Of a stretch of DNA of 64,000 nt, positions 12,381 to 30,195 are shown piece by piece (position 1 is the first letter of the stretch; the number at the start of each line of letters is the position of its first letter). The notes under the pieces were generated by a model, which saw only the letters and a list, made by a program, of their open reading frames with translations, did no database searches and was not told the DNA's origin. The DNA is from Pseudomonas entomophila (GTDB taxonomy: Bacteria > Pseudomonadota > Gammaproteobacteria > Pseudomonadales > Pseudomonadaceae). Location: the NCBI RefSeq assembly GCF_018417595.1, contig NZ_CP070982.1, positions 2,443,501-2,507,500 on the forward strand, in the 5' to 3' direction. The translations under genes and the position numbers were made by a program.

Positions 12381-12876
12381 GGCGCGCATCAACGGCCTGC
12401 GCGGGCAGGCGCGGCAGCGTTGGCAGGCCTTGGCCCCGCGTGAACGGCGTGCCGTGGCGCTGGCCGCCGCTGTGCTGGGGAGCTTCTTCTGCTGGCAAGT
12501 ACTGGTGGCGCCAGCGCTCACCCGTATCGAGCACTGGAACACTGAAACCCCGAAGCTGCGAAGCCAGGCCCAGGCCTTGGACGCCTTGCTTGGGCAACGC
12601 CCGGCCGACCTTGCCGGCGCCCTGGCCCAGACCCTGGACGAGGCGGGCCTGCGGGCGCACTCGCAACTCGATGCCGAGGGCGACGGCTGGCACCTGGCCT
12701 GGCGGCAGGCCCCGGCCGAACCGGCCATGGCCTGGTTGCAGCACATTCCCCCGCGCCTGGGGCTCACCATCGGCCAACTGAGCTTGCGCCGCGACCCGGG
12801 TGCCGACACCGGCCCGGTGACGTTTTCCGGAACCCTTCGCATGGATCAGGCGCACGGCGCTAAGGACCCTTCATGA
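12370..12876 (+). CDS. gspM: GspM inner-membrane platform protein
   Basis: A 168-residue bitopic protein with a short basic cytoplasmic head (KARINGLRGQARQRWQALAPRERR), one membrane helix (about residues 28-46) and a periplasmic domain, the layout of GspM, which pairs with GspL. It overlaps the end of gspL by 11 bases and the start of gspD by 4 bases. The sequence alone is weakly conserved, as is usual for this subunit, so position in the operon carries much of the weight. Confidence 0.8.
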   Translation: MSIKARINGLRGQARQRWQALAPRERRAVALAAAVLGSFFCWQVLVAPALTRIEHWNTETPKLRSQAQALDALLGQRPADLAGALAQTLDEAGLRAHSQLDAEGDGWHLAWRQAPAEPAMAWLQHIPPRLGLTIGQLSLRRDPGADTGPVTFSGTLRMDQAHGAKDPS

Positions 12877-15236
12877 CGTGCACTGGATCGCCACGTATTC
12901 TTTCTCGGGCACTGCCGTTCGCACCGCTGGCATTGGTCCTGGCGCTCAGCGCATGCGCCAACGCGCCGGCACCGCACAAACCCCTGGCCAGCAGCGAGCT
13001 TGGTCAGCCCCTGGCCCAGGTCGACAGCACTTCGACCGCGCTGGACCTGCACACCCAGCCCGGCGCCGGGGCACGCCAGGCCGTGCGCCAGGTACCGCCG
13101 CGGGTCGGCCAGCGGCATAGCCGTGGCACGCCCGCGCCGGTGGCCGGCAACCCGCTGGGCGATCAGCCGGTGCAGCTGAACTTCGTCGACGCTGATATCC
13201 AGGCGGTGGTGCGCGGCCTGTCGCGGGCCACGGGCCGGCAGTTCCTGGTCGATCCGCGGGTCAAGGGCCAGCTGACCCTGGTCTCCGAAGGCGAGGTGCC
13301 GGCCAGCAAGGCCTACGGCATGCTGCTGGCGGCGCTGCGCATGCAAGGTTTCAGCGTCGTCGATGTCAATGGCGTGGCCCAGGTGGTGCCCCAGGCCGAC
13401 GCCAAGCTGCTGGGTGGCGCGCTGGTGAGTGGCGACCGCGACGCGGGCAACGGCATGGTCACTCGCACCTTCCGCTTGCAGTACGAGAATGCGGTCAACC
13501 TGATCCCGGTGCTGCGCCCGATCGTCTCGCCGGACAACCCGATCAACGCCTACCCCGGCAACAACACGATCGTGGTCACCGACTATGCCGAGAACCTCGA
13601 GCGGGTGGCGCAGATCCTCGACCGCGTCGACATCCCCAGCGCCCTCGACACCGACGTGGTGGCGATCCACAACGGCATTGCCAGCGATATCGCCAGCATG
13701 GTCGGCGAGCTGCTCGACAGCCAGGGCGCCGACCCGACGCAGAAGATCAGCGTGCTGGGCGACCCGCGCTCGAACAGCGTGGTGATCCGCTCGTCCAGCC
13801 CCGAGCGCACCCAGCTGGCGCGCGACCTGATCTACAAGCTCGACAACGCCCAGAACAGCACCGGCAATCTGCACGTGGTGTACCTGCGCAACGCCCAGGC
13901 CGACAAGCTGGCCCAGAGCCTGCGCGGGCTGCTCACCGGCGAGAGCGACAACGCCACCAGCGACGGCGCCCGGGCGCTGCTCAGCGGTGGCGGCATGCTG
14001 ACGGGGGGCAATAACAAGAGTGGCGGCGCCAGCAGCAGTGGCACGTCGCAAAACACCAACGGCAACACCGGCAGCCTGAACCGGGGCAATGGCCAAGCGG
14101 GCACCACCACGCCCAATGGCTACGGCAATGGCTCCCAGCAGAGCGACCAGGGCATCGCGTTCTCCGCCGGCGGCGCGACCATCCAGGCCGACAAGACCAC
14201 CAACACGCTGCTGATCTCTGCGCCCGAGCCGCTGTACCGCAGCCTGCGCGAGGTCATCGACCAGCTCGACCAGCGCCGCGCCCAGGTGGTGGTGGAAAGC
14301 CTGATCGTCGAGGTCGGCGAGGATGACGCCAACGAGTTCGGCATCCAGTGGCAGGCCGGCAACCTGGGCAAGAACGGCCTGTTCGGCGGCGCCAACCTGG
14401 GCGGCAGCGGCCTGGGCAAGGGGCCCACCAGCATCGATGTACTACCGCCGGGGCTGTCGGTGGGGGTGGTCGACGGCACGGTGAAGATCCCCGGCGTCGG
14501 CGCAGTGCTCGACCTCAAGGTGCTGGCCCGGGCGCTCAAGAGCAAGGGTGGCAGCAACGTGCTGTCGACGCCCAACCTGCTGACCCTGGACAACGAGGCG
14601 GCGAGCATCTTCGTCGGCCAGACGATTCCCTTCGTCAGCGGCCAGTACGTCACCGACGGCGGCGGTAACAGCAACAACCCGTTCCAGACCATCCAGCGCG
14701 AGGAGGTCGGCCTGCGCCTGAACGTGCGCCCGCAAATCTCCGAGGGTGGCACGGTCAAGCTCGATGTCTACCAGGAGGTCAGCAGCGTCGACCAGCGCGC
14801 CTCCAGCGCCGCCGGCACGGTGACCAACAAGCGCGCCATCGACACCAGCATCCTGCTCGACGATGGCCAGATCATGGTGCTCGGTGGCCTGCTGCAGGAC
14901 GGCTACACCCAGAGCAACGAGGGCATTCCGTGGCTGTCGAGCCTGCCGGGGGTGGGCGCGCTGTTTCGCAGCGAGCGCCGGGCCAGCAACAAGACCAACC
15001 TGATGGTGTTCCTGCGGCCCTACATCGTGCGCGACGCCAATGCCGGGCGCAGCATCACCCGCAACCGCTACGACTTCATCCGCCGCGCCCAGGGCGACCT
15101 CAAGCCCGAGCACTCGTGGGCGCTGCCGGACATGGACATGCCGTTGCTGCCGCCGGTGGAGCAGGGGGTGCCCGATCAAGGGCGTGCGCCCCGTGCATCT
15201 ATTCGCGCGGTGCCGCTGGACGAGGTCGCCCGGTGA
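12873..15236 (+). CDS. gspD: GspD secretin (lipoprotein type) of type II secretion
   Basis: A 787-residue outer-membrane secretin that forms the exit channel. It has an N-terminal lipoprotein signal with lipobox LSAC (Cys28), then a Pro/Ala-rich linker and the N0 domain (from about 95, [14 protein letters not shown]). Further N domains follow with a Gly/Ser/Asn-rich insert (about 370-420), then the secretin core ([42 protein letters not shown]). The lipobox means it may reach the outer membrane by itself through Lol sorting, as described for HxcQ, without a separate pilotin. It overlaps gspM and gspE by 4 bases each. Confidence 0.93.
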
Positions 15237-16654
15237 GTCGCCTGCCATACGCCTGGGCCAAGGCCCAGCGCCTGGTGCTGCAGGCCAGCGGCGAGGAGGA
15301 CGCGCGCCTGGCGCGCTGCCCGTCGAGCCCGGCGTGGGCGGTGGCGGAGGTGCGGCGGCGTTTTGGCCAGGTGCCGGTCGAGGCGCTCAGCGACGCGCAG
15401 ATGGACGCGCTGCTGGTCAGCGCCTACGCCGACACCGGCAGCGCCGCGGCGGTGGTGGGGGCGGCGGAGAACGAGGTCGACCTCGACCGGCTGTTGCAGG
15501 ATATGCCCGAGGTCACCGACCTGCTCGAAGCCCAGGACGACGCGCCGGTGATCCGCATGATCAACGCCTTGCTCACCCAGGCCGCGCGCGACCAGGCCAG
15601 CGATATCCATATCGAGCCGTTCGAGAGCCACTGCCTGGTGCGTTACCGGGTCGACGGCACCCTGCGCGACGTGGTCTCGCCACGCAAGGCACTGCACGGG
15701 GCGCTGGTGTCGCGGATCAAGATCATGGCGCAGCTGGACATCGCCGAGAAACGCCTGCCCCAGGACGGTCGCATCGCCCTGCGGGTGGCCGGGCGGCCGA
15801 TCGATATCCGTGTGTCCACCGTGCCCACCGGGCATGGCGAGCGGGTGGTGATGCGTCTGCTCGACAAGCAGGCCGGGCGCCTGCGCCTGGAGGCGCTGGG
15901 CATGGACGCGACGTTGCTGGCGCGGCTCGACCAACTGATTCGCCAGCCCCATGGCATCGTCCTGGTCACCGGCCCCACCGGCTCGGGCAAGACCACCAGC
16001 CTGTACGCCGCCCTGGCGCGGCTGGACGCCAGCGTCAGCAACATCCTCACCGTCGAGGACCCGGTGGAGTACGACCTGCCGGGGATCAGCCAGATCCAGG
16101 TCAACGCGCGTATCGACATGAGTTTCGCCGTGGCCCTGCGGGCGATCCTGCGCCAGGACCCGGACGTGATCATGATCGGCGAGATCCGCGACCTGGAGAC
16201 CGCGCAGATCGCCGTGCAGGCGTCGCTGACCGGGCACCTGGTGCTGGCCACCCTGCACACCAACGACGCGGTGTCGGCGGTCAACCGCCTGGTGGACATG
16301 GGGGTGGAGCCGTTCCTGCTGGCCTCGGCGCTGCTCGGGGTGCTGGCCCAGCGCCTGGTGCGCCGGTTGTGCCCGCATTGCCGCGAGCCTGATCCGGCGG
16401 CGCCGGGGCAGTACCGCGCGGTTGGCTGCGCCCAGTGCAACCAGTGCGGCTATAGCGGGCGTACCGGCATCCACGAATTGTTCTGCGTCGACGACGCGGT
16501 GCGCAGCCTGGTGCACCAGGGCGCCGACGAACAGGCCCTGCGCGCCGCCGCCCGGCGCAATGGCATGCTCAGCCTGCGCGAGGATGGCCAGCGCTGGGTC
16601 GACGATGGCAGCACCTGCCTTGAAGAAATCCTGCGTGTCACCCGGGACGCCTGA
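15233..16654 (+). CDS. gspE: GspE secretion ATPase
   Basis: A 473-residue cytoplasmic hexameric ATPase that powers pseudopilus assembly. It has an N1/N2 region (1-130), then the nucleotide-binding core with Walker A GPTGSGKT (247-254, Lys253), an Asp box ([11 protein letters not shown]), Walker B (VIMIGEIRD) and His box ([11 protein letters not shown]). A zinc-type cysteine module follows (CPHC at 380-383, CAQC at 399-402, extra Cys405). Start taken at GTG 15233, overlapping the gspD stop as GTGA. All catalytic motifs are intact. Confidence 0.94.
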
Positions 16655-17859
16655 TGAACCGCTATCGCTATGAAGCCGCCGACGCCCAGGGGCGCCTGGT
16701 CAATGGCCTGCTGGAGGCCGACAGCCCAGCCGCGGTGATGGCCCAGTTGCGCGCCCTGGGGTTGACCGCCCTGGCGGTGGAACCCCAGGCCGTGGCCGGG
16801 CAGGGCGCTGGCCTGTTCAGCGCGAAGCTGTCCGATGGCGACCTGGCCTGGGCGACCCGCCAACTGGCCAGCCTGCTGGCCGCCGGGCTGCCGCTGGAAG
16901 CGGCGCTGGGGGCGACCCTGGAGCAGGCCGAGCGCAAGCACATCGCCCAGGTGCTGGGCGCCGTGCGAGCGGATGTGCGCAGCGGCATGCGCCTGGCCGA
17001 TGCGCTGGCCGAGCGGCCACGGGACTTTCCGGATATCTACCGCGCCCTGGTGGCGGCGGGCGAGGAGTCCGGCGACCTGGCCCGGGTGATGGAGCGCCTG
17101 GCCGACTACATCGAGGAGCGCAACACCCTGCGCGGCAAGATCATGACGGCGTTCATCTACCCCGGGGTGGTCGGCCTGGTGTCGGTGGGGATCGTCATCT
17201 TTCTGCTCAGCTACGTGGTGCCTCAGGTGGTCAGCGCCTTCACCCAGGCGCGTCAGGACCTGCCCGGGCTGACCCTGGCCATGCTCGCGGCCAGCGACTT
17301 CGTGCGAGCGTGGGGTGTGCTGTGCTTCGCCTTGCTGGCCGGGGCGTTCTGGGGCTGGCGCGCCTATTTGAAGGCGCCAGGGCCGCGCTTGGCCTGGCAC
17401 AGGCGGGTGTTGCGGCTGCCATTGATCGGGCGCTTTGTGCTGGGCCTGAACACGGCGCGCTTCGCCTCGACCCTGGCGATCCTGGGCAGCGCCGGGGTGC
17501 CGTTGCTTCGCGCATTGGAGGCGGCGCGCCAGACCTTGGGCAACGACTGCCTCGACCAGTGTGTCAGCGAAGCCACGGCGCGGGTGCGCGAGGGCGTGGG
17601 GCTGGCGTCGGCGCTGGCGGTCGGCAAGGTATTCCCGCCGTTGCTGATCCACCTGATCGCCAGCGGCGAGAAGACCGGCGACCTGCCGCCGATGCTCGAC
17701 CGGGCGGCCGACAGCCTGGCCAAGGACATCGAGCGGCGGGCGATGGGCATGACGGCGTTGCTCGAGCCGCTGATGATCGTGGTGATGGGCGCGGTGGTGC
17801 TGCTGATCGTGATGGCGGTGCTGATGCCGATCATCGAGATCAACCAGCTGGTGCAGTGA
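16654..17859 (+). CDS. gspF: GspF inner-membrane platform protein
   Basis: A 401-residue polytopic protein with two repeated T2SSF domains (about 65-190 and 270-390), the core of the secretion platform that contacts GspE. The opening [18 protein letters not shown] is the family's usual start. Three membrane segments are clear, near 165-190, 215-235 and 370-395. The start overlaps the gspE stop (TGATG). It is the last gene of the operon and converges with the GlxA-type regulator 9 bases on. Confidence 0.94.
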   Translation: MNRYRYEAADAQGRLVNGLLEADSPAAVMAQLRALGLTALAVEPQAVAGQGAGLFSAKLSDGDLAWATRQLASLLAAGLPLEAALGATLEQAERKHIAQVLGAVRADVRSGMRLADALAERPRDFPDIYRALVAAGEESGDLARVMERLADYIEERNTLRGKIMTAFIYPGVVGLVSVGIVIFLLSYVVPQVVSAFTQARQDLPGLTLAMLAASDFVRAWGVLCFALLAGAFWGWRAYLKAPGPRLAWHRRVLRLPLIGRFVLGLNTARFASTLAILGSAGVPLLRALEAARQTLGNDCLDQCVSEATARVREGVGLASALAVGKVFPPLLIHLIASGEKTGDLPPMLDRAADSLAKDIERRAMGMTALLEPLMIVVMGAVVLLIVMAVLMPIIEINQLVQ

Positions 17860-21593: not shown

Positions 21594-22937
21594 ATGACTA
21601 ACAGTCCCACACTTTCCCTGGCCGCGCTGCTGGCGCTGGCGGGTGTCGGCCCGGCCGCCTGGGCCGCCGAAGAGCAGCAGGAAGGGTTCATCGAGGGCAG
21701 CCGCCTGAGCGTGCTCAACCGCAACTATTACTTCAACCGTGACCACCGCGACGGGCCGGCCCCCACCTACAACCGTGGCAAGGAGAGTGACAACGGCTAC
21801 TCCGAAGCCTGGGCCCACGCCATCATCACCCGCTTCGAATCCGGTTTCACCCAGGGCACCGTGGGGGTCGGCGTGGATGCCTTCGCCATGCTCGGGCTCA
21901 AGCTCGACACCGGCGGTGGGCGCAACGGCGGGCGCAGCTCGTTCGATGTGCTGCCGGTGGACAGCGATGGCCAGGCCCGCGACGAATACAGCAAGGTCGG
22001 CGGCGCGGCCAAGGTGCGGCTGTTCGACACCGTGCTGCGGGTGGGCGATGTGTTCCCGGTCAACCCGGTAGTGGCTGCGGGTGACTCGCGCCTGCTGCCG
22101 GAGAGTTTTCGCGGCGTCACCCTGGAGAACACCAGCCTGCAGGGCCTGACGCTGCAGGCCGGGCGCCTGCATGCCATGAGCCAGCCGGTGTCCAGCGACT
22201 TGCGCGACAACTTCGTGACCTTCTACGGCGGCCCGGTGGATTCGCCGTGGATCGCCTACGGCGGTGGCGACTACGCGATCAACGAAAATGTCAGCGTGAG
22301 CCTGTTCGGCAGCCGCCTGAAGGACGTGTGGAACCAGTACTACGCCGGCACCAGTGTGACCTGGCCGCTGTCGGATGAACTGGCGCTGATCGGCGGCTTC
22401 AACTTCTACAACGCCAGGGACGAAGGGCGTCAGCGCCTGGGGCAGTTCGACAACGACATCTGGAGCGCAAAGGTCGGTGTGCGCTACGGCGCTCACACCC
22501 TGGCGCTGACGCACCAGCGCAACAACGGTGACGACGACTTCGACTACCTGCGCCAGTCCGACTCGATCTTCCTCGACAACTCCATCCAGTACAGCGACTT
22601 CAACTCGCCGAAGGAGCGTTCGTGGATGCTGCGCTACGACCTGAACATGGCCGCCTACGGCGTGCCGGGGCTGTCGTTCATGACCCGCTACGGCCGGGGC
22701 AGCGACGCCGACTACAGCCACGCCAACGCCTACTACATGCGCCGTGACGACAACGGCGACCCGCTCACCGACCAGAAGCGCTGGGAGCGCGACATCGAGG
22801 TCAAGTATGTGGTGCAGACCGGCGCGGCCAAGGACCTGTCGCTGCGCGTGCGCCAGGCCACGACCCGGGCCACGGCCTTCGAGTCGGACCTGGACGAGGT
22901 GCGGGTGATCGTCGAGTACCCGCTGTCGATTCTCTGA
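21594..22937 (+). CDS. OprD-family outer-membrane porin
   Basis: A 447-residue substrate-specific porin with a signal peptide (MTNSPTLSLAALLALAGVGPAAWA) and the OprD hallmark FIEGSRLSVLNRNYYFNRDHRDG. Further typical segments are SEAWAHAIITRFESGFTQGTVGVGVDAFAMLGLKLDTG and PGLSFMTRYGRG, and it ends in the aromatic/hydrophobic terminal strand VRVIVEYPLSIL. OprD relatives carry basic amino acids (OccD) or carboxylates (OccK); I cannot assign the substrate. Strong AAGGAG ribosome site. Ends at an intrinsic terminator. Confidence 0.92.
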   Translation: MTNSPTLSLAALLALAGVGPAAWAAEEQQEGFIEGSRLSVLNRNYYFNRDHRDGPAPTYNRGKESDNGYSEAWAHAIITRFESGFTQGTVGVGVDAFAMLGLKLDTGGGRNGGRSSFDVLPVDSDGQARDEYSKVGGAAKVRLFDTVLRVGDVFPVNPVVAAGDSRLLPESFRGVTLENTSLQGLTLQAGRLHAMSQPVSSDLRDNFVTFYGGPVDSPWIAYGGGDYAINENVSVSLFGSRLKDVWNQYYAGTSVTWPLSDELALIGGFNFYNARDEGRQRLGQFDNDIWSAKVGVRYGAHTLALTHQRNNGDDDFDYLRQSDSIFLDNSIQYSDFNSPKERSWMLRYDLNMAAYGVPGLSFMTRYGRGSDADYSHANAYYMRRDDNGDPLTDQKRWERDIEVKYVVQTGAAKDLSLRVRQATTRATAFESDLDEVRVIVEYPLSIL

Positions 22938-24646: not shown

Positions 24647-24802
24647 CCGTCGCTACTTGTTGCAAACTAATTCGTTAGTAGAGTGGCAAGACGTCGCTAT
24701 GGATTGGCGTCATATAAGAACAACACCCGTCTGCGTATGTCTCGTGTTTCTCGAAAGTTGAATGAGATTAACGCTGCCTTAGTGGCATCAAGCCATGAAG
24801 CG

Positions 24803-24824
24803 GACAGGCACGCGGCTGCCTGTC
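24803..24824 (+). promoter_or_regulatory. Hairpin with GGA motifs in the NRPS leader
   Basis: GACAGGCA-CGCGGC-TGCCTGTC forms a perfect 8-bp hairpin 37 bases before the NRPS start. GGA motifs occur at the hairpin base (CGGAC), in CCGGAAG, and in the ribosome site AAGGAAAT, a pattern compatible with RsmA/RsmE binding. No run of T follows, so it is not a terminator. Confidence 0.4.
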
Positions 24825-24860
24825 GATAACCGGAAGCCACTAAAGAAAAGGAAATTCTTT

Positions 24861-27800
24861 ATGTTCCAGATATACAGCTGCCCGCTCAGTACCGCCCAGC
24901 AGGAAGTGTGCCTCGCTATCAGCCAGAGCGGACGTAACCTCAACTATCACTTGTGTGACGTCATCGACTTGCGCGGTGACCTGAACCTGACCTGGTTGGA
25001 GGCGGCCATCCATGGCCAGTTGCTGCAGGCCGACGCCCTGCGCGCCAACTTCGAGATCGACCCGCGCAGCGGTGAATACGTACAGCGCATTCATGCCACC
25101 GACACACTGCCGGCCAAGACCTTCCAGTTTCATGACGTCAGCGACCGCGCCGACCCGGAACAGGCTTGCAGCGAGCTGCTGCAGCACCTGTTGGGGCATG
25201 ACATGGACCTGCAGCACGAACCGCTGACCCGCTACGTGGTGGTTCGCCTGGGCGCGCGCCACCACCGCCTGGTCGAGCTGGCCTCGCACCTGGTGGTGGA
25301 CGGTTTCGGCCATGGCATCCTGTTCGGCAACATCACCGCGCACTACAACGCCTTGAGCCGAGGTGAAACACTGGCGCCCCACGGCTACGCGCCCCTGGCC
25401 AGCGTGGCCGAGGCCGAGCAGGCCTATCGCGACAGCCCGCAGCACGACAAGGACCGCGGCTACTGGCGCCAGTACTGCCTGAAAATGCCCGAGGCCACCC
25501 AACTGGTGCCGGGCGATGCGCCCTTGGTCGAGCTCAACCGCCTGCGCCAGGTGTTCCAGGGCGAGACCGTGCAGCGTTTGCGCCATGTGGCCGGCGAGCA
25601 GTCGTTGCGGCTGTCGAGCATCCTGCTGGCGCTGTGCGCCACCTACCTGCACCGTATGACCGGCCAGGCCGAGCTGGCCGTCGGCATGCCCGTGGCCGCG
25701 CGCCAGCTCAAGGCGCTGCGCGAGTTGCCGTCGATGGTCGCCAACATCCTGCCGTTGCACCTGTCGTTCACGCCCCAGAGCACGGTGCTGACGGTGGCGG
25801 CCAACATCCAGCGCCAGTTGCGCCACCACCTGCTGCACCAGACCTACCGCAGCGAAAGCATGATCCGCGACCTGCACGCCGAGCGGGGCAACAAGCCGCT
25901 GTTCAATACACTGCTCAATATCGTCGCCTACGACCAGGGCCCCGGCTTCGAAGGCTGTGACACCACGATCCAGAACTATGCCAACGGGCCGGCCGAGCAC
26001 CTGGGCATCGATATCTTCGACCGGCACCAGGACGGGCGCCTGGAGATCGGCTTCAATGCCAACGCCGACCTGTATCCGGACGCCGCGCTGGCGTTGCATT
26101 ACCAGCGGTTGGTGGCCCTGTTCGAGCGTTTCGCCGAGGCGCCGCAGACCCTGGCGGCGGACTATGACCTGTTCCTGGCGGATGAACACGTGCGCTACTA
26201 CTCGCTGCCCGTGACCGAGGCTGCGCTGCCGGTGTTCGCCGATACTTTCTCCAGCGCCGTGCGCGAGCATGCCGGGCGGGTGGCGCTGAGCGAAGGCGGG
26301 CGTTCGCTGCGCTATGCCGAGCTCGACGCCGACGCCACGCGCCTGGCCGCGCACCTGCGCGGGCGTGGCGTGGTGGCCGGCGATTGCGTGGTGGTGATGT
26401 TCTCGCGCAGCGTCGAGTGGGTGGTGGCGGCAGTGGCATTGTTCAAGCTAGGCGCCTGCTACGTGCCGGTAGACCCCGACTTGCCGCCGGCGCGCATCGA
26501 ACACATCTTCGCCGATGCCGACCCCGCGCTGGTGATCGTGGCGCCCGGCAGCCAGCTGGCCGTCGAGGTCGCCGCCGACAAGCTGCTGCCGCTCACTGCT
26601 GAAACATTGGCGCACCTGCCGCAGGTCGAACAGGCGCTGGCGCCGTTCGATGCCAACCTGCCGGCCTACCTGATCTATACCTCCGGATCCACTGGCAAGC
26701 CGAAGGGTGTCGAGGTCACCCACCGCAACCTGGTGCCGATTGCCCGTACGGCCATCGAAGCGGCCCACTTGCAGCCAGGCGCGCGCGTGCTGCAGTTCAT
26801 TGCCGCCGGTTTCGACATGTCGGTGCTGGAGATCATGATGACCCTGCTGGCCGGTGCGCAGCTGGTGATCACCGACAAGGTTTCCAGCGCGCCGGGCAAG
26901 GCGCTGGCCAAGGTGGTCCGGCAGGCGTCCATCGACCTGCTGGTGATGACGCCGAGCCTGCTGGCCTGCCACCAGACCGAGGACTTCCCCCAGGACACCA
27001 CGCTGATGCTGGGCGGCGAGCCGTGCACGCCGGCGTTGCTGGCGCGCTTCGCCCATTGTCGCCTGCTCAATGTGTACGGGCCGACCGAGACGTCGTTCGC
27101 CACTTCGATCAACGCTCACTACGGTAGTGGCGACCTGTCGATCGGCCCGGCCACCGACAACACCCGGCTGTACGTGGTGGACAGCCAGCAGCGCCTGCTG
27201 CCGCCGGGCAGCTGGGGTGACCTGTTCATCGGTGGCCCGGGCGTGGCGCGGGGGTACCGCAACCGTCCGGACCTCACCGCCAAAGGTTTCGTCACCGACC
27301 TGCTCGACCCGCGGAGCACCATGTACCGCGCCGGGGACCGGGTGTACTTCGACCACCAGGGGCGCATCCACTACCTCGGCCGCCAGGACAACCAGGTCAA
27401 GTTGCGCGGCCTGCGCATCGAACTGGACGAGATCAAGAACGTGCTGCTGGGTTGCAATGGCGTGACCGACGCCACGGTGTTGCTGCGTGAGTTGCGGCAG
27501 GGGCCGGCCATCGTCGCCTATGTCGCCAGCACCGATAGCCGTCTGGACAGCGCGCAACTGAAGCAGGCGCTTGGTCGGCATCTGCCCCAGCACATGATTC
27601 CGAGCGTGATCATGCGCGTCGACCACTTCCCGCTGACGCCCAACGGCAAGCTTGCGGTCGATCGCCTGCCGGAGCCTGTTTTGACCGAAGCCAACGAGCT
27701 GAGCGCCGCCGAGACCCCGGAGGAGCAGGCCATGTGCGCGTTGTTCGCCGAAACGCTCGACTGCCCGCAGGTGTTCGCCAACCAGAGTTTCTTCGACCTG

Positions 27801-28739
27801 GGCGGGCATTCGCTGCTGGGCTTGCAACTGGTCAACCGGATCCGCGAGCAGTTCGGCGTCGCCTTGGGCATCGCCGATTTCCTCGCCGCGCCGACCCCGC
27901 GCCAGCTCGCCCAGCGCCTGCGGCGCAACAACGGCTACAGCGATCCGTTCAGCGCCGTGCTGGCGCTGCGTACCGAAGGGCGGCGACCACCGCTGTTCTG
28001 CATCCATCCCGGCGGCGGCATCGCCTGGCCCTATGCGGGGCTGCTGGCGTACCTGCCGGAGGACCAGCCGCTGTATGCCCTGCAGTCACCGATCCTGCTC
28101 GACCCGGAGCGGGTGGTCGGTTCGCTGGAGGAACTGGCGCGGGAGTACCTGCAACGCATCGTCGCGCTGCAACCCCAGGGCCCGTATCAACTGGCGGGTT
28201 GGTCGGTGGGCGGCAACCTGGCGCTGCTGATCGCGGCGATGCTGCAGGCCCAGGGGCATGAGGTGAGTTTCCTGTGCATGTTCGACAGTTATCCGCTGCA
28301 GGGCGGGCCGGCCTCGCTGAAGCTGGACGACGCGATGATCATCAGCCGCATGACCCGCGCCATCGTCGGCACGCCACGGGCCGGGCTGAAGGGGCTCAAG
28401 AGCGCCATGGAGGAAGTGCTCGGCAGCCAGCAGCTCGGGGATGCCTTCCTGACCCGGCTGGTGGACGACTCCAAGCTGATGCTCGAATTGCTGGGGCGTT
28501 GCCAGTACGCGCGCTACAAGGGCGACTTGCTGTTCATCCGTGCCACCACCGATATCCTGCGCCAGGACGAGCAGCAACCAGGCTTGTGGTTGCCCTGCAT
28601 CGACGGTGAGCTGGTGCAGGTCGATGTCGAGGCACCCCATGAGTGCCTGCTGCAGCGCCAGTACCTGGACCAGTTCGGCGAGCGCTTCGTCGAGGCGTTG
28701 CTCGAAAAGCAGGTTGCGGTGGCGGTGAACGAAGCCTGA
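24861..28739 (+). CDS. Single-module non-ribosomal peptide synthetase (C-A-T-TE)
   Basis: A 1292-residue NRPS with one complete module and a release domain, the same order and almost the same length as EntF. The condensation domain (about 5-440) has SHLVVDG at 142-148, with the catalytic His143 and Asp147. The adenylation domain (about 465-945) has YTSGSTGKPKG from 606, FDMSV from 651, YGPTE from 739 and Lys930. Carrier-domain Ser984 lies in LGGHS. The thioesterase has Ser1115 (GWSVGG), Asp1142 and His1260. The specificity residues, aligned by eye to GrsA, read D-M-L-V-M-G-V-F-A-K, which is not the serine code of EntF and which I cannot assign. Start at ATG 24861 with AAGGAAA; the in-frame ATG 22 codons upstream lacks a site. 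No other NRPS, MbtH, carrier-loading or export gene is adjacent, so the donor substrate of the C domain and the product are unknown. Confidence 0.93.
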   Translation: MFQIYSCPLSTAQQEVCLAISQSGRNLNYHLCDVIDLRGDLNLTWLEAAIHGQLLQADALRANFEIDPRSGEYVQRIHATDTLPAKTFQFHDVSDRADPEQACSELLQHLLGHDMDLQHEPLTRYVVVRLGARHHRLVELASHLVVDGFGHGILFGNITAHYNALSRGETLAPHGYAPLASVAEAEQAYRDSPQHDKDRGYWRQYCLKMPEATQLVPGDAPLVELNRLRQVFQGETVQRLRHVAGEQSLRLSSILLALCATYLHRMTGQAELAVGMPVAARQLKALRELPSMVANILPLHLSFTPQSTVLTVAANIQRQLRHHLLHQTYRSESMIRDLHAERGNKPLFNTLLNIVAYDQGPGFEGCDTTIQNYANGPAEHLGIDIFDRHQDGRLEIGFNANADLYPDAALALHYQRLVALFERFAEAPQTLAADYDLFLADEHVRYYSLPVTEAALPVFADTFSSAVREHAGRVALSEGGRSLRYAELDADATRLAAHLRGRGVVAGDCVVVMFSRSVEWVVAAVALFKLGACYVPVDPDLPPARIEHIFADADPALVIVAPGSQLAVEVAADKLLPLTAETLAHLPQVEQALAPFDANLPAYLIYTSGSTGKPKGVEVTHRNLVPIARTAIEAAHLQPGARVLQFIAAGFDMSVLEIMMTLLAGAQLVITDKVSSAPGKALAKVVRQASIDLLVMTPSLLACHQTEDFPQDTTLMLGGEPCTPALLARFAHCRLLNVYGPTETSFATSINAHYGSGDLSIGPATDNTRLYVVDSQQRLLPPGSWGDLFIGGPGVARGYRNRPDLTAKGFVTDLLDPRSTMYRAGDRVYFDHQGRIHYLGRQDNQVKLRGLRIELDEIKNVLLGCNGVTDATVLLRELRQGPAIVAYVASTDSRLDSAQLKQALGRHLPQHMIPSVIMRVDHFPLTPNGKLAVDRLPEPVLTEANELSAAETPEEQAMCALFAETLDCPQVFANQSFFDLGGHSLLGLQLVNRIREQFGVALGIADFLAAPTPRQLAQRLRRNNGYSDPFSAVLALRTEGRRPPLFCIHPGGGIAWPYAGLLAYLPEDQPLYALQSPILLDPERVVGSLEELAREYLQRIVALQPQGPYQLAGWSVGGNLALLIAAMLQAQGHEVSFLCMFDSYPLQGGPASLKLDDAMIISRMTRAIVGTPRAGLKGLKSAMEEVLGSQQLGDAFLTRLVDDSKLMLELLGRCQYARYKGDLLFIRATTDILRQDEQQPGLWLPCIDGELVQVDVEAPHECLLQRQYLDQFGERFVEALLEKQVAVAVNEA

Positions 28740-28791: not shown

Positions 28792-29457
28792 TCACTCCGT
28801 GAACAGATTGCCGGTCGAGGGCAGCGCGTCCAGTTTTGCCTGAAGCAGTGCGATGCACTGCTCGTGGTGGGCGATCTGCGCACGGTGGGCCTCGATCTGC
28901 GCCTGCAGGTCGTGGCTGTCCGGTGAGACGAGGCGGGCCATCTTCCTCGACAGTGAGATCTTGCGGTCGGCTTCCTGCCTGGCGCGGTCGTCCATCTGCG
29001 CCACCAGCCATTGCAGATCCACGGGCGACTGCACGGTCTGGAACTGCTCCAGAGGCTTGAGGTAGACCAAGGACTTTTTCTGGCGCCCCAGCAGTTCGAG
29101 CACGTTGCCGAGCGTGCCGGGGCTCTTGCAATCCCAGATCATCAGGCCGTAGTCGCAGTCCGCCGCCATCGCCAGGTCCTTGGCGGTATGGAAGGCGCGG
29201 CCTTTGGCGTTGATCGGCGGCGAAATCATCGCCAGCGGCCAGCCACCGTCGTTATGGCGAGGGGTGTCGCCACTGCAGTAGACGGTGACGGCCGGGTAGG
29301 CGGCTTGATGAAAGTGGCGCTGCACGGCATGGTCCACACCGCCGGCGTCCCCCACCAGCACGTCCAGCCCGGATGAGCGGATGTTGTCGAGCCTCGCCTC
29401 GACCTGTGGGGGGAGGCGCTTGATGGTGATGGAGCCGGCAATGAAGACCCTGGGCAT
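28792..29457 (-). CDS. SLOG-domain nucleotide-binding protein with coiled coil
   Basis: A 221-residue protein whose first 130 residues look like a SLOG (Rossmann-like, DprA/LOG-related) domain: VFIAGSITIKRLPPQV, then LDVLVGDAGGVDHAVQRHF, AADCDYGLMIWDCKSPGTLGNVLELL. The C-terminal third (about 155-210) is a charged helix with the repeat QAQIEAHRAQIAHHEQCIALLQAKLDAL, probably a coiled coil for self-association. SLOG domains bind or cleave nucleotides and nucleotide signals. The start overlaps the stop of the phosphoribosyltransferase gene (TAATG), so the two are translated together. The exact activity is not known. Confidence 0.78.
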   Translation of the reverse strand: MPRVFIAGSITIKRLPPQVEARLDNIRSSGLDVLVGDAGGVDHAVQRHFHQAAYPAVTVYCSGDTPRHNDGGWPLAMISPPINAKGRAFHTAKDLAMAADCDYGLMIWDCKSPGTLGNVLELLGRQKKSLVYLKPLEQFQTVQSPVDLQWLVAQMDDRARQEADRKISLSRKMARLVSPDSHDLQAQIEAHRAQIAHHEQCIALLQAKLDALPSTGNLFTE

Positions 29458-30029
29458 TAGTGCCTCCGCGTCAGGGCGACGACAGAAATGCTGCGGATGC
29501 TAGCGTATTCGCGCAGGGCGGTACAGGCGGCCTCCAGCGATGCGCCGGTGTCGTACAGGTCGTCCAGCACCAGGATGTCGGAGCCGAGCTGCAGGTTGGC
29601 GTTGACCGTGAAGCAGCCGGCCAGCGCCTTGACCCGCTCCTCGTAGCTGGCCAGGTCCTTCATCAGGCCGGTGCTCCAGCGTTTTTCCAGGGTTTGCTCG
29701 TTGTAGCCGGCGTCGAGCAGCGCGGCGGCACGCTGGGCCACTTCATACACCGGCTGGCGCGCACGCTGCTTGCTGGCGGGCATGGGCAGGATCGCATCGA
29801 AGCGGCGGCCGGCGAGTGCGCCGGCGACCGACTGGGCGAGGAATTCCACCTGTTTGTAGTTGTCGCGGTACTTGAGTTGGAACACCGCTTCGCCGATGGC
29901 GGTCCTGACCGTGTCGAACTGCATGTAGCCGTATTCGTTGGGGCCGATGGGGACGCTGGAAACGATGTGCTTGTCCAGGCTGATGCCGTAGTCCCAGGCG
30001 GTGTTGGCGGGGAGGGGGTGAATGACCAT
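29457..30029 (-). CDS. ComF/PRTase-type phosphoribosyltransferase
   Basis: A 190-residue type I phosphoribosyltransferase-like protein. It keeps the PRPP-binding loop ILVLDDLYDTGASLEAAC, the FQLKYRDNYKQVEFLA and FDAILPMPASKQRARQPVYEVAQ segments seen in ComF-like proteins, and ends VVALTRRH. The zinc finger of true ComF is absent. Start at ATG 30029 with GGAAG eight bases upstream; an upstream in-frame extension has no support. Coupled to the SLOG gene and 248 bases downstream of the PP2C gene on the same strand. PRTases of this type occur in Ter-related and nucleotide-salvage operons; substrate unknown. Confidence 0.82.
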   Translation of the reverse strand: MVIHPLPANTAWDYGISLDKHIVSSVPIGPNEYGYMQFDTVRTAIGEAVFQLKYRDNYKQVEFLAQSVAGALAGRRFDAILPMPASKQRARQPVYEVAQRAAALLDAGYNEQTLEKRWSTGLMKDLASYEERVKALAGCFTVNANLQLGSDILVLDDLYDTGASLEAACTALREYASIRSISVVALTRRH

Positions 30030-30195
30030 GGAGTGCTTCCTTGTACGTGAGTCGATGGGAGGGGCCCTTGTGGGCCGAGACGCCATCTTGCGTCTGACTC
30101 GAGACGGGATCGACTTCATGGTTTCCGTGTTTGCTGTAGTCCTTTTCCTTGTTTTTCGGGTTCCGACTTTCTCGATTCGGCGACGGTTCCTGGAG

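Follow-up and report, generated by a model that had tools for sequence, protein, structure and literature searches.

The stand-alone C-A-T-TE synthetase gene of a Pseudomonas entomophila-like bacterium is very probably pys, encoding pyreudione synthetase

We analysed a 64,000-nucleotide stretch of a Pseudomonas entomophila genome (hereafter the window), and found a nonribosomal peptide synthetase (NRPS) gene in which the Pfam matches follow the order Condensation, AMP-binding, AMP-binding_C, PP-binding and Thioesterase within a single open reading frame (ORF). This order corresponds to condensation (C), adenylation (A), carrier (T) and thioesterase (TE) domains, C-A-T-TE (Table 1). The motifs SHLVVDG, LGGHS, GWSVG, FDS and PHE were intact on inspection, and the catalytic residues were present, namely the His of SHLVVDG in the C domain, the D and K of the A domain, the Ser of LGGHS in the carrier, and the Ser, Asp and His of the TE domain. 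An earlier note on this DNA had described a complete module with the layout of EntF and had named a mutated carrier or TE site as a finding that would count against its reading; both sites are sound, and the gene product is an intact stand-alone C-A-T-TE module. Of the two His residues usual in the C domain, the first is replaced by Ser in the window protein, as it is in most of the relatives aligned.

The ORF spans 24795-28739 on the plus strand and gives 1314 aa counted from its first ATG, while a start at 24861 gives the 1292-aa product of Table 1. The latter start is plausible, and we favour it because a GGAA stretch, AAAGGAAATTCTTT, lies immediately 5' of ATG 24861 (our start-codon script covered at most 45 bases upstream). 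It is not proven, since several relatives, including P. entomophila COR5, likewise have an open frame before 24861 that aligns with that of the window.

Table 1. Features of the synthetase gene (window coordinates)
Feature	Position	Strand	Basis
Possible ribosome-binding stretch AAAAGGAAATTC before ATG 24861	24846..24857	+	Inspection only
pys (very probably pyreudione synthetase), single-module NRPS C-A-T-TE, 1292 aa	24861..28739	+	Longest ORF from 24795; Pfam, HKI0770 match, motifs
Condensation domain PF00668, starter-like; active-site motif SHLVVDG at 25284-25304	24879..26183	+	Pfam, tree, inspection
Adenylation domain PF00501 + PF13193	26253..27650	+	Pfam, motif alignment
Code codons (first base)	D26814, M26817, L26826, V26943, M27006, G27012, V27072, F27096, A27099, K27648	+	
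Carrier (PCP/T) domain PF00550; phosphopantetheine Ser at 27810-27812	27729..27920	+	Pfam, motif
Thioesterase domain; PF00975 match 27987-28301, extended to His motif	27987..28652	+	Pfam, inspection
Thioesterase residues	Ser 28203, Asp 28284, His 28638	+	Motif inspection

The window protein was 81% identical over residues 1-1288 to a protein of Pseudomonas fluorescens HKI0770. All ten residues of the adenylation code and the five inspected C, T and TE motifs are the same in the two proteins, and about 19% of the residues differ. HKI0770 has 28 C-domain matches, of which 27 lie in frames of 2146-5989 aa; the remaining one, at the position of the relative, lies in a 1332-aa frame, so that the relative is the sole stand-alone single-module frame among them. 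In a search of 144 genomes, close matches were found in the own genome and in G074 (81%); for the remaining 142 genomes, the top-scoring match had 34% identity.

In the literature, the HKI0770 pathway is defined by a stand-alone C-A-T-TE NRPS (PMC8719888). The NRPS gene is named pys, and pyreudiones A-D are pyrrolizidine diones (PMC10706944). Pyreudione A was isolated from P. protegens Pf-5 ΔgacA with vector-borne pys, and a Δpys strain was deficient in pyreudiones (PMC11904905). We assign the window gene as pys, the pyreudione synthetase of a P. entomophila-like bacterium, with a probability of about 95%. The gene thus has a known product class and an ecological role known from the literature, defence against amoebae. 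The earlier note had called the synthetase an orphan and had stated that close similarity to a characterised synthetase whose product is known would count against this. The HKI0770 enzyme is such a case, and the orphan status falls.

The layout shared with EntF (enterobactin synthetase component F) raised a different explanation, in which an EntF-like synthetase cooperates with an aryl or amino carrier whose gene lies elsewhere in the genome. EntF itself is specific for Ser, and its partner is an aryl carrier. Among the NCBIfam models EntF scored best, and its domains follow the same order, but the window protein reached 542.7 bits against a curated cut-off of 2400 (NF007605), and EntF-type function was rejected on this score. 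Furthermore, no neighbours are common between lineages in the flanks examined, and a host given HKI0770 pys makes pyreudione A (PMC11904905). We consider this explanation very improbable.

Evidence from P. entomophila itself points in the same direction as the HKI0770 match. Activation of PSEEN_RS10885 in strain L48 led to pyreudiones in 2019, and the wild type made none under the conditions tested (PMC6972681). Pyreudiones are also listed as L48 products in PMC10194917 and PMC12828459, and the latter places the pip cluster at RS12600-RS12635. This leaves little room for the small undescribed metabolite that the earlier note had envisaged. We compared the window gene with PSEEN_RS10885 by species group and relative map position. 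The window genome (5.96 Mb, one contig) showed 92-96% nucleotide identity to P. entomophila COR5 in five long aligned blocks. It contains NRPS frames of 2125, 5012 and 8559 aa, which by our own assignment are likely the entolysin synthetases, and NRPSs at 2.90-2.92 Mb that we likewise assign as likely pip NRPSs. The window gene lies at 2.468 Mb, about 433 kb upstream of the likely pip NRPSs. RS10885 and RS12600 are 343 locus-tag steps apart if tags rise by five, or about 1.26 kb per step. This distance fits, indicating that the window gene lies about where RS10885 is expected.

The ten-residue code of the A domain was DMLVMGVFAK on a motif-placed alignment, with positions set by motif on GrsA numbering, and agrees with the code read by eye in the earlier note. 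The GrsA structure 1amu was found as a relative of the A domain (E 2.5e-71). The note had left the code unassigned. The HKI0770 enzyme carries the identical code and has L-Pro as its native substrate, with pyreudiones E-K arising from other precursors (PMC7242659). Because of this shared code and the reported substrate, DMLVMGVFAK is probably a non-canonical proline code, and we propose that it should be read as L-proline.

The usual L-Pro patterns are VQ(Y/F)IAHVV in modular enzymes and L(L/F)YLALVC in stand-alone enzymes (PMC3874040). The window code, MLVMGVFA at the corresponding positions, fits neither, and other modules of the same genome do have VQ-type codes. These two points would favour an enzyme of the same type that takes another amino acid or acyl group and makes a related undescribed N-acyl-amino-acid lactam or tetramate. 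The native L-Pro of the identically coded HKI0770 enzyme and the pyreudiones obtained from the L48 gene argue against it, and we regard it as very unlikely. If the window enzyme takes L-proline, its pocket looks like a second, unlike solution for the same substrate, and a single genome appears to hold two dissimilar pockets for what is probably one amino acid. The VQ-type proline-like codes were DVQFVAQVV (L009) and DVQYVAHVV (L023), both at 2.90-2.92 Mb in the likely pip region. Codes of the own genome were read at nine of the ten positions from 23 of 30 C-domain loci, including the window copy L024; the other seven had no recognisable A3 motif in reach. We found no discussion of the Pys A-domain code in the accessible passages of the pyreudione literature, a search that did not extend to the original pyreudione papers (Klapper 2016, 2018).

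To place the C domain, a tree was built from 30 of the 41 C domains of the own genome (those with loci) and eight relatives. The Pys C domains grouped with the first C domain of the 2125-aa two-module NRPS with a support of 98/95. This NRPS is likely EtlA of entolysin by our own assignment, and its first C domain is presumably a fatty-acyl starter domain. The donor lacking from the locus is probably a fatty acyl group, and production of pyreudione by a host given one gene points to a fatty acyl thioester of primary metabolism. The tree grouping agrees with this single-gene production. The earlier note had proposed, among other options, an acyl or amino donor supplied in trans, and a C-domain phylogeny to classify the domain; an acyl donor in trans is now likely, and the phylogeny gave a starter-like placement on long branches.

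Several points weigh against the assignment as pys and the acyl donor derived from it. The C-domain grouping unites two long branches, of 1.39 and 1.46 changes per column. The identification of the window gene with PSEEN_RS10885 is a probable one, drawn from species likeness, map position and the HKI0770 match. In addition, acyl preference could differ from that of the HKI0770 enzyme at 81% identity.

Taking the gene as pys, we propose the following mechanism. The A domain would activate L-proline, the substrate named in the papers, and load it onto the carrier domain. The starter-type C domain would then join a fatty acyl group from primary metabolism, presumably a CoA or acyl carrier protein (ACP) thioester, to the proline nitrogen. 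The TE domain would accept the N-acyl-prolyl chain and may release it by C-C ring closure of the Dieckmann type, giving the bicyclic pyrrolizidine dione. Ring closure by a TE domain is known chemistry. A single synthetase gene would suffice, and the phosphopantetheinyl transferase (PPTase) and any MbtH protein would be common to the other NRPS systems of the genome. The domain order, motifs, code and gene identity with HKI0770, neighbour comparison and C-domain grouping come from this analysis; the literature supplies the L-Pro substrate, the class of product, its formation in a host that received the gene, and the amoebicidal role. By analogy with HKI0770 and L48 as described there, the product would be a pyreudione.

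The pyrrolizixenamide synthetases of Xenorhabdus resemble Pys in using an NRPS route to pyrrolizidine products, but differ in having a two-module synthetase and a tailoring enzyme. Pyrrolizixenamide of Xenorhabdus is named in PMC6972681.

We also examined the surroundings of pys. It is flanked on one side by a divergent gene for a YncE-like beta-propeller protein and on the other by a convergent gene that has no Pfam match. No NRPS, partner, MbtH or PPTase Pfam match was found in 20 ORFs scanned between 12873 and 37697 (a chosen set, some probably not genes), in line with the earlier note. Genome-wide, there was one ACPS-family match and one MbtH match, both far from pys. An OprD-family porin gene (21594-22937) lies just past the divergent neighbour, and type II secretion genes (secretin, GspE-like, GspF-like) lie upstream at 12873-17859.

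For 14 of the 15 loci compared (L031-L045), the flanks gave no tblastn match (1e-12) to any window ORF of at least 100 aa outside pys. Only P. entomophila COR5 (L031) shares the neighbouring ORFs. Flanks of at most 10 kb were compared, some of them truncated at contig ends: L032 has almost no downstream flank and L037 almost no upstream flank. The flank examined for HKI0770, which contains no window neighbours, extends 10 kb on the upstream side but only about 0.25 kb on the downstream side. An all-against-all comparison of flank ORFs revealed four families common to at least two hand-set groups; no family spanned every group, and the P. entomophila pair had none of the four. Neighbours do recur from one P. 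fluorescens-type locus to another (L032-L035), as expected for one chromosomal site. A dedicated gene cluster is not supported: in the flanks examined, the window's neighbours are not shared with the other lineages.

Two further observations concern the flanks. The region 28792-30119 holds a gene without a Pfam match and a gene with a weak, below-cut-off phosphoribosyltransferase match, found in the COR5 flank only among the 15 loci. A transporter-like ORF (384-418 aa) and a 254-255-aa ORF lie near pys in two Pseudomonas loci (L033 and L034, 6.5-7.8 kb downstream) and two Photobacterium loci (L036 and L042, 2.4-5.1 kb upstream), and may be a common pair near pys by chance.

The closest copy of pys in the genome collection was in P. 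entomophila COR5 (96%), followed by five further Pseudomonas loci at 80-82%, among them HKI0770. Within the genus, the gene was present at E<=1e-250 in 5 of 298 genomes, own included. Eight non-Pseudomonas genera have full-length relatives with 54-71% identity and an identical or almost identical code: Photobacterium, Chromobacterium, Aeromonas, Pectobacterium, Brenneria and Algicola as genome loci, and Lonsdalea and Xenorhabdus by protein names. Their genomes are easy places to seek pyreudiones. This scattered distribution is compatible with lateral transfer of pys alone. In the six copies checked, the G+C content of the gene exceeded that of the respective window or locus by 0.6 to 4.9 points. 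The plasmid collection contained only distant NRPSs, with less than 60% identity in all 2719 records. Of 59 same-genus genomes, only 2, own included, had a strong match to the upstream neighbour, and no empty site could therefore be read from it; a radical SAM gene 6 kb downstream was present in 49 of the 59, again own included.

Conservation of the active sites was followed in 16 locus copies, consisting of the window and 15 of the 16 loci from the genome-collection search (L046, a 25% partial match, was excluded). The TE Ser, Asp and His and the carrier Ser were retained in all 16. The code was identical in ten copies, with only V/I or M/L changes in the other six. Among 14 further relative proteins aligned, some repeating those loci, T replaces V at one position in P0013, S replaces A in P0018, and P0017 and P0021 are incomplete at the code K, with P0021 also having L for V. 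P0019 and P0020, at about 40% identity, have a different code.

A more far-reaching reading, which we consider less likely than not, is that pys is a one-gene alkaloid factory whose proline pocket evolved separately from the VQxxAHVV type, and that it spreads on its own among distant Gammaproteobacteria and to Chromobacterium. In this reading, far members (Algicola at 55%, P0019 and P0020) may make new pyreudione relatives.

P0018 (Vibrio quintilis, 955 aa) and P0021 (Vibrio aerogenes, 888 aa) have about 50% identity, no T-TE motifs in the alignment, and DE and DR in place of DG in the C-domain motif; they appear to be truncated or decaying copies, or split genes. P0019 and P0020 (1288 aa) are single-module C-A-T-TE proteins with the code DVLFITL-VK and the TE motif GWSFG, and are a possible sister family to the Pys enzymes.
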